Positions 17,596 to 46,125 of a DNA stretch of 64,000 bases are shown piece after piece. Under the pieces are notes generated by a model. It did not search any database and had not been told where the DNA came from. It was given only the letters and a program-made list of their open reading frames with translations. Within the stretch, counting starts at the first letter, position 1. Each line of letters begins with the position of its first letter. The stretch is from Natrinema sp. DC36 (GTDB lineage: Archaea > Halobacteriota > Halobacteria > Halobacteriales > Natrialbaceae), in NCBI RefSeq assembly GCF_020405225.1, contig NZ_CP084472.1, positions 2,542,001 to 2,606,000 on the forward strand. Reading direction: 5' to 3'. The position numbers and the translations under genes are program-made.

Positions 17596-18804
17596 ATGAT
17601 CGACCGCAGTACCTTCGTGGCCGCGTTCCTCGTCGTCGTGGTCATTGCGAGCCCTCCGGCCGTGGCCTACTCCGGCGCACCGGGTTCGAGTTCGTCGTCG
17701 AACGAAGCCGCACAGCTGGCGGACGGAGACCCCCTCGACTCCCTGGCGTGTCTCCCGTCGCCGACGCTCGAAAATATCTCGATGAACGCCTATAAGCAGG
17801 AGGCGACGAATCTCCGGACGAAATCGGGGGACGTTTCCGCGACCAGTACCGGCCCGTCCGACGGGCAAGAGACGTTCGGAATCGAGTCCGGATTGATCGC
17901 CGCGAGCACGATCTGTTTTAGCGGATCGGATCACGACAAGGAGAGTATCGAACTCCGGCTCAACGATGTCGGGTTCCAGGACACCACGCTTATCGGCCCG
18001 TGGACTGACGTCGAGTTCGAGCAGGGTGAGGCTGACTCGATGACCGTCGTTCTCTCACCGGAGGCGGTACTGGATCTCCTGAAGCAGCTCCCCGATTCGA
18101 TCGATGCGATCAAGACCATCAAAAATCTGTTCGGGATAGAAGACTACGGGATCGACGAAACGGACCCCGCGGCAAACGAAACCGACGACACCGAAGACAA
18201 TACGACGGATCCGGACGACGATACCGGGAATAACACCACGGGTTCGGACGACGATGCCGGGGATAACACCACGAGTTCGGACGGCGATACCGGGAACGAT
18301 GTCGTGCTGGATCCGGTCGACGACACAGAAGACGATATGACGGATCCGGTCGACAATTCCACGAATGAGACGACGGAAGCGGTCGATGATACCGTGGACA
18401 ATACGACGGATGCAGTCAACGATACCACGAATAATACGACGGACGCGGTTGACGACACCACGAAGAACACGACCGATGCAGTCGACGGGACCGTAGATAC
18501 CACGACGGATGCGGTCGACGATACCACGAACAGTACGACGGATGCAGTCGACGAGACCGTGAATGACACGGCGCTCGACGAACCCGTAGACAACACGACG
18601 GACGCGGTTGACGAGACCGTAGACGAGACTACCAACGTGGTTGACGATACCGTGAACGGGACCACGGACGTGGTCGATGAAACCGTAGACGGGACCACCG
18701 ACGTAGTCGACGAGACCGTGGATGGGACGACGGGCATAATCGGAGGTATCGCAGAGGGAACGACAGATGCTATCACTATCGGGACCGATTCCGCTATCGG
18801 CTAG
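17596..18804 (+). CDS. Secreted sequon-rich repeat protein
   Basis: 402 residues. A Sec-type signal peptide (MIDRSTFVAAFLVVVVIASPPAVA, cut near residue 24) precedes a globular domain to about residue 190 with two cysteines (LACLPSP and STICFSGS). Residues 195-385 are an acidic repeat of roughly 11 residues based on TTDAVDDTTNN, with more than a dozen N-x-S/T sites, so heavy N-glycosylation is likely. No PGF-CTERM or other anchor is visible at the end (GTTDAITIGTDSAIG). Divergent from the shortened DPCK gene. The globular domain resembles the next secreted protein in general style only. Function unknown. Confidence 0.75.
   Translation: MIDRSTFVAAFLVVVVIASPPAVAYSGAPGSSSSSNEAAQLADGDPLDSLACLPSPTLENISMNAYKQEATNLRTKSGDVSATSTGPSDGQETFGIESGLIAASTICFSGSDHDKESIELRLNDVGFQDTTLIGPWTDVEFEQGEADSMTVVLSPEAVLDLLKQLPDSIDAIKTIKNLFGIEDYGIDETDPAANETDDTEDNTTDPDDDTGNNTTGSDDDAGDNTTSSDGDTGNDVVLDPVDDTEDDMTDPVDNSTNETTEAVDDTVDNTTDAVNDTTNNTTDAVDDTTKNTTDAVDGTVDTTTDAVDDTTNSTTDAVDETVNDTALDEPVDNTTDAVDETVDETTNVVDDTVNGTTDVVDETVDGTTDVVDETVDGTTGIIGGIAEGTTDAITIGTDSAIG
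18160..18750 (+). repeat. 33-nt imperfect coding tandem repeats
   Basis: Within the secreted protein, units of about 33 nt encode TTDAVDDTTNN-like peptides. Units drift in length and sequence, but the array is clear from about 18390 to 18740. Slippage can change the number of copies. The region 18160-18390 has looser repeats of a NTTxSDDDxGD type. Confidence 0.7.
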
Positions 18805-19064
18805 CGACCGACGGAATCGGCGACCGATCGATCCGATAGCCGACCGGAACTCCCGGTCGAAACACGACGTGGTCGGTACCGTCCTGCCGCCGCTGCGTCT
18901 CGCCGACTTCTGATCGAATCACGATTCGTTCTCGAGGCGATTCACGCATCGATCACGGACGGGTTACCGTTCTAACGGCGATACTCGTTCCGGAGACGAG
19001 CGAACGCGTCTGGTCCGTTTTATAGGACCTCGGATACACGTGCAAATTTATAACTACGCATTCG
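18805..19064. other. Intergenic region between two secreted protein genes
   Basis: 260 bp. No convincing gene; a 51-codon minus ORF (18794-18949) has no promoter and overlaps the end of the repeat gene. A good TATA-like TTTATA at about 19019-19024 and AATTTATAA at 19045-19053 precede the next ATG at 19065. Confidence 0.5.
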
Positions 19065-19682
19065 ATGGAATACGGGACACTCGTGCCAATCGATCGCAAA
19101 CGGTTTCTCGTCAGCTTTCTCGTCACGAACGTCGTGCTGGTCTGTGTCTTGACCGGCATGATAACGGCCGGTGTTGGCGCTGCCGTCCCAACCGCCGGCG
19201 TCGGAACGTTCGCGATTACGTTCGACGAACTCCACGGAGAAGGGTTCGAACAACGGTCGACGATGGGGAGCACCGAAACGTGCGGACAGTACTCCGTCAA
19301 CGTCGCCCAGATCGACGACGGGACGATCGAGGGACTGCACCTGTTCAAAGACGCCGAGATGCCCGTCACCGGTGAGACGGTCAGGGTGTCAATAAAATCC
19401 GACGACGTCGAGTTCCAGGGCCTCAGCCAGAAGTTCACTCGCCTCGAGGGCGATCTCTCGTTCGACGAGGACCAGGTTACCGAATACGACACCGAAGGCC
19501 CCCAGGACCAGATGCGAATCTCGGCGTCGAGCATCACGATCGAGGACGGCACGATCCATACCGACCGCCAGTTCATCACCAAACTCTCGCTCGACGACCT
19601 CGAGGTCGATACGATACGGAACCCCGACGAGGGGCTCGGAACTCGAGAAAACGATTGTCTGGCGGGGAACAGCTCAGGCTGA
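19065..19682 (+). CDS. Secreted or anchored protein, DUF6230-like
   Basis: 205 residues. An N-terminal signal or anchor (KRFLVSFLVTNVVLVCVLTGMITAGVGAAV) is followed by a beta-rich domain: FAITFDELHGEGFEQRSTMG, YSVNVAQIDDGTIEGLHLFK and a GETVRVSIKSDDVEFQGL strand. The combination of a short anchor, the 'F-x-G-x-G-F' turn and a later 'I-x-G-L-x-L-x-K' strand recalls the DUF6230 proteins of actinomycetes, but this is a weak resemblance. It sits between the two dpck copies. Function unknown. Confidence 0.6.
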   Translation: MEYGTLVPIDRKRFLVSFLVTNVVLVCVLTGMITAGVGAAVPTAGVGTFAITFDELHGEGFEQRSTMGSTETCGQYSVNVAQIDDGTIEGLHLFKDAEMPVTGETVRVSIKSDDVEFQGLSQKFTRLEGDLSFDEDQVTEYDTEGPQDQMRISASSITIEDGTIHTDRQFITKLSLDDLEVDTIRNPDEGLGTRENDCLAGNSSG

Positions 19683-37745: not shown

Positions 37746-37833
37746 GGTTCATCGGGACGAGCCTCGCTCGAGCGGTCGTGGGCGTGTGGCCATCGTTGAC
37801 AGGGACGGCTAGTTTTGGCAAGTCCTATATCCT

Positions 37834-37839
37834 TTTACG
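37834..37839 (+). promoter_or_regulatory. TATA-like box of the homoserine operon
   Basis: CTTTTA after CTATATC at 37829-37835 puts a transcription start near 37863, exactly at the ATG of the 15-codon leader ORF (37864). Confidence 0.45.
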
Positions 37840-37863: not shown

Positions 37864-37911
37864 ATGACGACGAGTAGACGCCCGCAGGCAGGAGGTGCCG
37901 TCGATGGGTGA
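37864..37911 (+). CDS. 15-codon leader ORF overlapping the ACT-domain gene
   Basis: ATG at 37864 to TGA at 37911 reads MTTSRRPQAGGAVDG. The transcript is predicted to begin at or right before this ATG. The downstream gene's GGAGGTG ribosome-binding site (37891-37897) and its ATG (37904) are inside the little ORF, and its TGA overlaps the gene's start. So translation of the leader would cross the initiation site of the next gene. Regulation by coupling is inferred. It is not rich in threonine or methionine. Confidence 0.45.
   Translation: MTTSRRPQAGGAVDG
37891..37897 (+). promoter_or_regulatory. Shine-Dalgarno site GGAGGTG for the ACT-domain gene
   Basis: A near-perfect match to the 16S rRNA 3' end, 6 nt before ATG 37904 (between lie CCGTCG). 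It decides ATG 37904 over GTG 37895, which overlaps the SD itself. Confidence 0.7.
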
Positions 37912-38470
37912 CGTACCCGAACCCGACGACGACAACCCCGACGCCGAGACCGACGGCGGCGTCCGCGCCTATACCGTCCGGCTCGAACTCGTCGACGAAC
38001 CCGGCGAGTTGCTTCGCGCGCTCGCGCCGATCGCCGACAACGGCGGCAATCTGTTGAGCATCCACCACGAACGCGGCAACATCACGCCTCGCGGGCATAT
38101 TCCCGTCGAGGTCGACATCGAGTGCCCGCCCGACCGGTTCGACGGCATCGTCGAGGCGCTGCGCGACACCGGCGTCAACGTCATCCAGGCCGGCGAAGAG
38201 CACTACGGCGAGGAGATGAACGTCATCCTGATCGGCCACCTCGTGGAAACCGACCTCTCGAACACGCTCTCGCGAATCGAGGACGAGGCCAACGCCGTCG
38301 TGGAAGACCTCTCGCTGGCCGCGCCCGACGGGACCGAAGCCGTCGCGAGCGCTCGAGCGCGACTCGCGGTCAACTCCGGGCGGTCCACGGAGGCGCTCGC
38401 AGCCATCCGCGCGATCGGGACGGACAAGGAGCTAACTGTCGTCGAACCGCTGCTCGGAGGTGAGGCCTGA
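37904..38470 (+). CDS. ACT-domain amino-acid-binding regulatory protein
   Basis: 188 residues. An ACT domain is at residues 20-90: YTVRLELVDEPGELLRALAPIADNGGNLLSIHHERG. The rest has ALRDTGVNVIQAGEEHYGEEM and VILIGHLVETDLS; the pair of domains is typical for proteins next to archaeal homoserine dehydrogenase. It probably senses an aspartate-family amino acid and controls the enzyme. Stop overlaps the next start by 1 base (TGATG). Confidence 0.87.
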   Translation: MGDVPEPDDDNPDAETDGGVRAYTVRLELVDEPGELLRALAPIADNGGNLLSIHHERGNITPRGHIPVEVDIECPPDRFDGIVEALRDTGVNVIQAGEEHYGEEMNVILIGHLVETDLSNTLSRIEDEANAVVEDLSLAAPDGTEAVASARARLAVNSGRSTEALAAIRAIGTDKELTVVEPLLGGEA

Positions 38471-39417
38471 TGGAGCTCGCGATTCTCGGCGCCGGTGACG
38501 TCGGCCGCTCCGTGGCCGATCTCGTGGCCGAATACGGCCACGAGGTCGTCGCGCTCGCCGACTCCACCAGCGCCGCGGTCGATTCGGACGGCATCGCCGT
38601 CCAGGACGCCCTCGAGCGCAAGGTCGGCGGCGAACCCGTCGGCACCGCCGATCCCGAGGCCGTCTTCGACGCGGGCTACGACGTACTGGTCGAAGCGACG
38701 CCGACGACGCTCGGCGACGCCGAGCCCGGTTTCTCGCACGTCACGCGCGCGCTCGAGGCCGACCGTCACGTCGTGCTGGCGAACAAGGGGCCGGTCGCCG
38801 AGCGTTACGAAGAGTTGCGTGCGCTCGAGGCCGAGCACGCGGGCTCGGTTCGGTTCGAGGCGACCGTCGGCGGCGCGATTCCGGTGCTCTCGACGATCGA
38901 CGACTGCACGCCACAGGCCGTCACCGCGGTTCGTGGCGTCCTCAACGGCACCGCGAACTTCATCCTCACCCGGATGGCCGCCGAAGGGCTCGACTACGAG
39001 CACGTTCTCGCCGAGGCTCAGGACCTGGGCGTCGCCGAGGCCGATCCAACCTTCGACGTCGACGGCACCGACGCCGCCCTCAAGTTCGTCATCCTCGCGA
39101 ACGTGCTGGCCGACGGCGGCTTCGCGCTCGAGGACGCAACGGTCGAGGGAATTCAATCGATTCCGGGCAGTGCACTCGACCTCGCAGCCGAGGACGGCCG
39201 CACGATCCGGCTCATCGGGGAGGCCACGCGCGACGGTATCCGCGTCGGTCCGCGACTCGTCCCCGAAAACGGCGCGCTGGCCGTGACCGGCACGCGAAAC
39301 ATCGTCCAGATCGAGACCCGTAATGCGGGATCGCTCCACTCGAGCGGCCGCGGTGCCGGCGGTCCGGAGACGGCCACGGCGGTCCTCTCGGACGTCGGTC
39401 GACTGCCGCCGCTGTAG
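38470..39417 (+). CDS. hom: Homoserine dehydrogenase
   Basis: 315 residues. LAILGAGDVGRSVADLVAEYG is the NAD(P) motif, VVLANKGPVAERYEEL and AVRGVLNGTANFILTRMAAEG are homoserine dehydrogenase signatures, DVDGTDAALKFVILAN completes the catalytic domain. It converts aspartate semialdehyde to homoserine on the way to threonine and methionine. The ACT regulator is the separate upstream gene, coupled by a 1-bp overlap, so the enzyme has no C-terminal ACT itself. Confidence 0.93.
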   Translation: MELAILGAGDVGRSVADLVAEYGHEVVALADSTSAAVDSDGIAVQDALERKVGGEPVGTADPEAVFDAGYDVLVEATPTTLGDAEPGFSHVTRALEADRHVVLANKGPVAERYEELRALEAEHAGSVRFEATVGGAIPVLSTIDDCTPQAVTAVRGVLNGTANFILTRMAAEGLDYEHVLAEAQDLGVAEADPTFDVDGTDAALKFVILANVLADGGFALEDATVEGIQSIPGSALDLAAEDGRTIRLIGEATRDGIRVGPRLVPENGALAVTGTRNIVQIETRNAGSLHSSGRGAGGPETATAVLSDVGRLPPL

Positions 39418-44610: not shown

Positions 44611-46125
44611 GTGGCCGATGAGACACCGCGGCTCGAGCTGGGAACGTTCGACGAGGGCGAGGAGTGGGACCACACCGACACGGTCGAGGCGGTCGACGAG
44701 CACGCGATCGTCCACGGGCCGATCGCCGAGCGTCCGTCGACCGGCGAGTACGACGACGAACTATACCACGCGACCGATCAGGAGATCACCTGGCGGTGGG
44801 ACGCCTCGAGCGAGGACTGGTGCTATTTCGGCGGGCGGGGAAGCGCCGAGCAACCGGTTCCGGGGACGAGCCACTTCGAGGCGACAGACGTGGTCCACGC
44901 GCGGACCGCGGAGACCCCCGTGTGGAACGTCGAGGCCCACGGGATCGAGGGCGACGGAGAAACCGAGGTCGGCGAGGCTGTCCACGAACTCCTCAAAACC
45001 GTGGCCAAGGCCGGCGGCGGGATCGTCTACTTCCCGCCGGGTCGATACCTGCTCGAGCGGACGCCGCTGGTGGGCGACGATACGATCGTCATGGGTGCGG
45101 GTCGTTCGACGGTTTTCGAGGGGACGCGGCCCGACGGTGAGGAAGGCAAGGCGCTCCTCTCCAACAGGGGCTTCGACGCGACGGGATACGACGGCGCGTC
45201 GAACTGGGGCGTGTGCAACGTCCGAATAGACACGCCGAAGACGACCGGGATCATGCCCGCGCACGCGGCGACCGTCCGATTGGAGAACATCTACGGCGAC
45301 CACACCTACAATCATCATATCGACGTCGTCTCGTCGAAAAACGTCGTCGTGGACGGCTACTGGGCGACTCGAGGCGGCGAGAGCGGGTCGGATGCGCCGG
45401 TGCAGTTCGACGCGCAGTATCCGGGGGCATCCTGGAACGGCGTATGGGACGGGAGCGAGTATACGCTCGTCGAGGACGACGACACCCCGACCCGGAACTG
45501 CACCCTCACGAACTTCGAGATCGATCCCGTGAACAGCCCGGAGCACGGCGTTCACCTCCACCACGGCAGCAACGAGTCGATCACGATCACGGACGGCTAT
45601 ATCACCGGCTGCGAGTATACGGCGATCAGGGCCGACCCCGACGAGGCGGTCGCGGATCTGACGATCGACGGCGTCTCGTGTATCGACAATGCGAGGGGTA
45701 TCACGCTGGGGCACGTCGAGAGCGGCCGGCGAGAGCTGACGATCAGTAACACGACGATCAGGACCGACGGCCGCGATCTGGCTGCCGGATCGGGGCTGTA
45801 CGCCGCCGGATTCGACGGCGCTGCGATCTCGAACGTCGTCGTCGACGGCCCGTTCACGAACGCGATCATCTTCGACGACATGGACGACCTGAAGATGAGC
45901 AACGTAACTGCGAGAGGGTCGGACGATCAGGCGTTCCGATTCCGAGAGAACGTCGACGTAACGCTCACCACCGCTCGAGCGGCGGATTGCGGTACCGACG
46001 GCATCTACTCGGGCCCCGGTAGCAGCGTCGCCTACGGCGGCGTCACGTTCGACGATGTCGGGACGCAGGTCGACATCGATGACGACGGTGAGACTCGAGC
46101 GTGGGTCACGTCGGAATCGTCGTAA
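44611..46125 (+). CDS. Right-handed beta-helix (pectate-lyase-like) protein, lacks own signal
   Basis: 504 residues from GTG 44611 (VADETPRLELGTFDEG). After the 150-residue N-terminal domain (WRWDASSEDWCYFGGRG), AGGGIVYFPPGRYLLERTPL opens the beta-helix typical of pectate-lyase-like and polygalacturonase-like proteins; then many TITDGYITG, LTIDGVSC and AISNVVVDGPF rungs. No catalytic residues can be assigned. It continues the small lipoprotein segment upstream after a presumed single-base frameshift. A secreted polysaccharide-acting role is plausible. Confidence 0.75.
   Translation: MADETPRLELGTFDEGEEWDHTDTVEAVDEHAIVHGPIAERPSTGEYDDELYHATDQEITWRWDASSEDWCYFGGRGSAEQPVPGTSHFEATDVVHARTAETPVWNVEAHGIEGDGETEVGEAVHELLKTVAKAGGGIVYFPPGRYLLERTPLVGDDTIVMGAGRSTVFEGTRPDGEEGKALLSNRGFDATGYDGASNWGVCNVRIDTPKTTGIMPAHAATVRLENIYGDHTYNHHIDVVSSKNVVVDGYWATRGGESGSDAPVQFDAQYPGASWNGVWDGSEYTLVEDDDTPTRNCTLTNFEIDPVNSPEHGVHLHHGSNESITITDGYITGCEYTAIRADPDEAVADLTIDGVSCIDNARGITLGHVESGRRELTISNTTIRTDGRDLAAGSGLYAAGFDGAAISNVVVDGPFTNAIIFDDMDDLKMSNVTARGSDDQAFRFRENVDVTLTTARAADCGTDGIYSGPGSSVAYGGVTFDDVGTQVDIDDDGETRAWVTSESS

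Follow-up and report, generated by a model that had tools for sequence, protein, structure and literature searches.

Leaderless small open reading frames (ORFs) that are coupled to the gene behind them by an RTGA overlap of stop and start codons have been described in mycobacteria, with one example in which the linkage, and not the peptide, is conserved (Shell et al. 2015, PMC4633059). According to a review, a function of such ORFs may be to deliver ribosomes (PMC12548453). Among archaea, translational coupling has been studied in Haloferax volcanii, where nine of nine gene pairs were strictly coupled, ACT/hom among them, where the tested downstream genes showed no de novo initiation at their Shine–Dalgarno (SD) motifs and where the contribution of the SD motif to reinitiation was variable (Huber 2019, PMC6728339). 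The commonest overlaps in this species are 4, 1 and 8 nt, and a distance of about 20 nt between stop and start almost abolishes coupling; in Escherichia coli, the last 15 nt of the upstream gene are enough for it (Huber 2023, PMC10666635). Leaderless transcripts make up 72% of the protein-coding transcripts of H. volcanii (PMC4983044), and the species is reported not to use SD motifs for initiation in leaders, a report that rests on sod in this one species (PMC3986360). Three other systems are related more loosely: polycysteine leaderless ORFs that respond to cysteine (Canestrari et al. 2020, as cited in PMC9094748), an engineered leaderless bicistronic design in the bacterium Corynebacterium glutamicum, in which a fore-cistron and an SD motif drive the second gene (PMC10367133), and upstream ORFs (uORFs) of 15–31 codons in long 5′ untranslated regions of H. 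volcanii (Babski 2016, PMC4983044).

Here we analyse a 15-codon uORF in front of the genes for an ACT-domain protein and homoserine dehydrogenase (hom) in Natrinema sp. DC36. It shares with the mycobacterial ORFs of Shell et al. a short frame whose stop overlaps the next start, a linkage that is kept without the peptide and a proposed role in ribosome delivery, and its promoter spacing fits the leaderless start that theirs have. It differs from them in that theirs, as described, are bacterial and of the RTGA type, whereas the haloarchaeal ones overlap the gene by 4, 8 or 11 nt or abut it, and recur at one operon in most surveyed families of an order, in hosts reported to lack SD initiation in leaders. 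With the coupled H. volcanii pairs it has in common the overlap geometry, and ACT/hom itself is one of the pairs tested; those pairs are annotated genes, and the sections that describe them (PMC6728339, PMC10666635) do not mention a leaderless mini-cistron before ACT. The ACT/hom construct, as presented there, consists of the ACT gene cloned in an expression vector, with the native leader and its uORF outside its scope (PMC6728339). The H. volcanii uORFs are likewise small haloarchaeal ORFs in leaders; they number 16, come from leaders of 150–250 nt only and include none for hom, and the section on uORFs does not describe coupling or conservation (PMC4983044). In the open-licence literature we found no description of such a uORF for the haloarchaeal hom operon, and the accessible text of a ribosome-profiling paper on H. 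volcanii (PMC12482152) does not mention homoserine or threonine.

The window, by which we mean the whole stretch of 64,000 nucleotides that was analysed, carries the operon on its forward strand. The gene for the ACT-domain (amino-acid-binding) protein, of 188 amino acids, spans 37904–38470 (+) and matches Pfam ACT (PF01842) with an E-value of 1.5e-05 and 25.1 bits, slightly below the 27-bit cut-off. Homoserine dehydrogenase follows at 38470–39417 (+; Homoserine_dh, PF00742, E-value 7.3e-51; NF004976, 240 bits against a cut-off of 205). Its start codon and the stop codon of ACT share 1 nt (TGATG, 38468–38472), and its SD motif as read from the sequence, GGAGGTGA, lies within the ACT gene at 38456–38463 (+).

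The predicted leaderless uORF, which would encode MTTSRRPQAGGAVDG, occupies 37864–37911 (+) and consists of an ATG, 14 more sense codons and a TGA that ends at 37911. A TATA-like box, TTTTA, can be read 27–31 bases 5′ of its ATG (37833–37837, +), and a second AT-rich hexamer, CTATAT, lies at 37825–37830 (+). The SD motif GGAGGTG (37891–37897, +) sits within the uORF, six bases 5′ of the ACT ATG at 37904, and the two frames overlap by 8 nt, ATGGGTGA (37904–37911, +), with the uORF stop as bases 6–8 of the gene. The uORF is thus found as the initial annotation had described it, spanning the SD motif and the start of ACT and ending inside the gene. Its frame is +1 relative to ACT, at a start-to-start distance of 40. 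Upstream of ACT, the nearest stop in its frame shares bases with the uORF start codon (ATGA), which rules out a longer version of the gene that reaches back to the promoter. In a survey of 313 genes from this genome, AT-rich tetramers have their peak 28–31 bases 5′ of the start codon, which is the spacing expected for leaderless transcripts; the uORF promoter fits this peak, and transcription is predicted to start at 37864. A scan for sigma-70 promoters and terminators gave no matches, as expected in an archaeon. The same genome holds a second, paralogous ACT–hom pair (contig position 3796423, locus L002), with 71% identity in ACT and 83% in hom, which has its own coupled promoter-spaced uORF, MLPMTIYHAPTDGDPDG, at the same offset and with an unrelated peptide.

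We probably see here a leaderless fore-cistron that loads ribosomes, which terminate, reinitiate on ACT and then go on to hom. As judged from the promoter spacing, the transcript would start at the uORF ATG or a few bases from it. Ribosomes would enter at this ATG by leaderless initiation, translate the 15 codons, terminate at the TGA within the overlap and reinitiate at the ACT ATG, aided by the SD motif that the uORF carries; a second reinitiation at the TGATG junction would bring them to homoserine dehydrogenase. A single leaderless entry point would in this way set the translation of the whole operon and hence the output of a committed step on the way to threonine and methionine. The geometry that termination–reinitiation requires is present in the window in the 8-nt overlap, and a leaderless cistron of 15 codons with an internal SD motif and such an overlap has what coupling is known to need in H. 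volcanii and E. coli.

The arrangement recurs well beyond the window. We collected the regions upstream of ACT orthologues through searches of the genus and the family, from 55 loci of named genomes, from 80 stretches picked by hand among matches in the family and the order (for most genera between one and a few) and from 60 loci in two additional genome sets. The 227 matching loci yielded 194 regions distinct over 230 nt and, after stricter deduplication, 185. A region was scored as coupled if it held a promoter-spaced ATG that opens a frame with its stop within 0–11 of the gene start; the promoter tetramer was sought from −34 to about −24 for the orthologues, from −32 to −27 in the genome control described below and from −31 to −28 in a strict repeat. 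By this definition, 171 of the 185 regions are coupled, with frames of 7–70 codons, in 10 the gene itself is scored as leaderless and 4 are neither (180, 10 and 4 in the 194-region set); the surveyed regions share ancestry, and the 171 leaders are not 171 independent events. The threonine, shuffling and codon-position tests below were run on the larger set of 194 regions, where some genomes are present twice. Coupled leaders occur in 11 of the 12 labelled families that make up the leader survey (which leaves out f2, f9, f11, f15 and f16) and in 57 genus-level groups, with paralogues counted separately and some named-genome loci bearing no family label. The annotated frame is therefore kept in close relatives, a point on which its significance had been made to depend: the arrangement holds through the genus, the family and most other haloarchaeal families surveyed.

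What is constant in the 171 coupled leaders is the position of the stop: directly before the gene in 4, at base 4 of the gene in 62, at base 8 in 95 and at base 11 in 10. The distance from the uORF ATG to the gene ATG takes 43 different values between 20 and 205 nt. In 162 of these leaders, an AT-rich tetramer has its first base at −28 to −31. An RTGA overlap is present in 62 of the 171 leaders of relatives; the 8-nt overlap of the window is not of this type. Matches to the SD motif of at least 6 nt were found in 109 of 171 leaders and are nearly absent in two families that keep the uORF (1 of 16 in f12, 0 of 7 in f6). The frame of the uORF switches inside three genus groups (f12g52, f1g11 and f6g48) with coupling intact; in f6g48, start-to-start distances of 88 and 89 (L150 and L208) lead to stops at +8 and +4, the former at the second TGA of ATGAGTGA and the latter at the first. 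The uORF peptides, 7 to 70 codons long, look unrelated between families by eye, and the linkage is kept. The pattern that Shell et al. noted, conserved linkage without a conserved peptide, is thus found in 171 of 185 regions, with peptides compared by eye. In the short class, which includes the window, the peptide would apparently be immaterial, and what is kept would be a frame that stays open and stops at the right place.

The exceptions are few. The six f17 loci (L135, L136, L155, L163, L164 and L166) lack a coupled promoter-spaced uORF and have a promoter-spaced ATG in frame with ACT, as expected if leaderless loading must be kept; this suggests an evolutionary swap between a leaderless uORF and a leaderless gene. 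Two of them, L136 and L163, also contain short out-of-frame coupled ORFs that are not promoter-spaced. Outside f17, the coupled uORF is missing in four regions, two in which the gene starts in frame (L098 and L222) and two paralogues with neither (L121 and L122). In L119, L219, L224 and L226, the coupled uORF is kept and the promoter test failed, and the promoter of L140, which was scored as coupled, is doubtful. As a separate observation, the usual promoter sequence is unrecognisable by eye in L075 (Saliphagus), where an ORF of 41 codons nevertheless has its stop at +8 of the ACT start.

On the sequence comparisons that follow, the arrangement is not a product of chance. In a strict test, we took every out-of-frame ATG within 220 nt of the gene that has a tetramer at −28 to −31, irrespective of where its frame stops. 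Such an ATG exists in 162 of 185 regions, a coupled one in all 162, and 167 of the 172 ATGs found are coupled, with a stop within 0–11. As a control, 332 genes from 464 kb of the window's own genome were examined with a spacing of −27 to −32. Of these, 126 appear leaderless in their own frame, an out-of-frame promoter-spaced ATG precedes 29 and a coupled one 6, and among the 6 there are 3 that lack a leaderless start in the gene's frame. With the arrangement at 6 of 332 genes only, we do not claim a widespread class of coupled leaderless uORFs in this genome. Interior stops are absent from the uORF frame (0 of 3,380 codons) and present in the other two (57 of 3,380 and 95 of 3,275). The openness of the frame alone is modest evidence for any one lineage, because GC-rich DNA has few stops: when interiors were shuffled with the frame and the gene start fixed, 70% on average were still coupled (180 regions, before final deduplication), a high figure because gene starts such as that of L150 and L208 stop both other frames. 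The gene itself bears a further mark. All 95 members of the +8 class have T as the wobble base of its second codon, which the uORF stop demands; in the +4 class the count is 10 of 62, and for codons of Natrinema genes in general the share is 9.4%.

Two further genes with a similar layout came to our attention. In the window, the gene at 44611–46125 (+), whose product begins VADETPRLEL, follows a promoter-spaced ORF of 49 codons with a stop that overlaps its GTG start. In L229, a gene at 17676–19142 (−), which by eye resembles those for phage portal proteins, has a 16-codon promoter-spaced ORF with ATGA on the gene start.

Against these data, several other readings of the uORF can be weighed. 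Promoter and SD motif are strongly conserved across the genus, and one could take the conserved element to be promoter and initiator DNA, with ACT as a plain leadered gene that uses its SD motif and the frame as incidental; the lack of interior stops in the uORF frame only, a stop position constant over 43 distances, frame switches that retain coupling and the 167 coupled ATGs of 172 make this very improbable. Hardly more credible is drift, in which indels moved a leaderless start out of frame and the overlap with ACT is a by-product free of selection for coupling. Gene starts of the ATGAGYGA type do stop one or both other frames, so that random indels would often yield an overlap, yet in the Natrialbaceae (f1) 55 of 56 coupled leaders end at +8 or +11, which needs a T wobble and then RA in the first gene codons, and the uORF frames lack interior stops. 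We likewise give very little weight to a small functional peptide. A sequence like MTT(C/S)xRP recurs in Natrialbaceae, and at a start-to-start distance of 37 third codon positions are somewhat more variable (mean non-consensus 0.30, 0.30 and 0.41 at the three positions), but there is no third-position excess at distance 40 (0.26, 0.21 and 0.25), and the peptides of other families look unrelated over their range of 7 to 70 codons. A conserved peptide, as judged by this codon-position test, was set aside on account of the inconsistent signal between distances 37 and 40.

The initial annotation had left it open whether leaderless initiation on the leader would interfere with SD initiation on ACT or feed it. 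Interference would mean that translation of the uORF occludes an SD motif and start at which ACT is otherwise initiated de novo, with stalling at threonine codons freeing the site. The window uORF does cover both the SD motif and the ACT start, low threonine would then raise expression, which is the right sign for feedback, and the long uORFs of other lineages are rich in threonine in frame and enriched in ACA. Occlusion, however, tolerates any stop past the start, and only 1 of the 172 ATGs of the strict test has its stop beyond base 11 (L184, at +59); threonine in the short uORFs is no commoner than in frame +2; and many leaders, above all in f12 and f6, have no good SD motif. Where the uORF is kept with hardly any SD motif there is little left to occlude, which favours feeding. 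Feeding also fits better because a stop at the gene start is the geometry needed for termination–reinitiation, and because de novo SD initiation in a 5′ leader has not been seen in H. volcanii. We therefore regard interference as unlikely, and delivery of ribosomes by the uORF as the half of the earlier proposal that fits the data better.

The same annotation had taken the ORF as a candidate translational control of aspartate-family synthesis. In the window, the uORF may be such a control or a fixed loading device; the threonine signal appears only in the longer leaders of other families. In the long uORFs, compared in 23 groups before final deduplication, threonine accounts for 117 of 789 codons (summed group means); the two other frames give 54 and 52, and shuffled sequences 51. 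The uORF frame has the most threonine in 15 of the 23 groups (p 0.0017). Stretches such as STITVILTARG, MTIITSTG, QPTTT and TIIGSTTT stand out. ACA makes up 46 of 168 threonine codons in 30 genus-by-distance representatives, whereas the ACT-gene sequence available for all long-leader loci has 17 of 558. Leader ORFs rich in threonine, or in threonine and isoleucine, were noted in L215, L216, L151, L083, L084, L086, L211 and L156; we take them to resemble bacterial thr leader peptides. These longer versions in other families give a hint of a leader linked to threonine. In mycobacteria, polycysteine leaderless ORFs reportedly act as attenuators, and the interference reading of the uORF would be of that kind. 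Like these ORFs, as far as their description in PMC9094748 goes, the long class has a leaderless leader ORF of an amino-acid operon rich in the relevant residue; it differs in that the residue is threonine, not cysteine, and the short member in the window has no frame-specific enrichment.

The short class as a whole, the window included, shows no excess of end-product codons in the frame of the leader: the uORF frame is the richest in threonine in 10 of 38 groups, with 36.8 of 238 codons, and frame +2 has 35.0 of 223. Threonine sensing by the short uORF of the window was considered and rejected, since the 45 of 282 interior codons exceed the 8.2% of shuffled sequences but frame +2 reaches 15.5% and the group test was negative; leaderless-like genes have 8.2% threonine in codons 2–9.

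RNA structure was examined as well. The fold of the window leader has a z-score of −1.07, and those of eight long leaders range from 0.27 to −3.00, the last for L151, whose leader folds better than 199 of 200 shuffles. A candidate hairpin 5′ of the threonine codons, which had appeared compensatory by eye, found no support in the pair count, with a covariation of 0.138 against 0.117 (s.d. 0.014) and 38 of 500 shuffles as high, in an alignment of 31 long leaders that mixes distant rows. Rfam gave no match at the gathering score in 12 loci; the one sub-threshold match is on the opposite strand, far from the leader.

In lineages with long leaders, the threonine codons may tune the output of the operon. 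If reinitiation were the sole route to ACT, stalling at these codons would turn a shortage of threonine into lower expression, the opposite of what simple feedback calls for; with occlusion or a transcriptional step, the sign would be right. It is a tentative possibility, and in our estimate a rather doubtful one, that an order-wide leaderless leader cistron controls threonine and methionine synthesis through the flow of ribosomes into the genes for the ACT sensor and for homoserine dehydrogenase, and that in several lineages this cistron is rich in codons for threonine and isoleucine, the rare ACA among them. Such a leader would be an archaeal counterpart of the bacterial thr attenuator, built on termination–reinitiation.

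Haloarchaeal transcripts are mostly leaderless and their SD motifs are reported to be without use in leaders, which raises the question of how a leadered gene receives its first ribosome. At one operon, in most surveyed families of an order, evolution's answer would be a leaderless mini-cistron that ends on the gene start. The reading of the uORF as a loading fore-cistron predicts that unannotated tiny ORFs can serve as functional entry points for ribosomes and that reporter fusions made without the leader would mislead. For these organisms, it also implies a possible point of translational control in aspartate-family synthesis.
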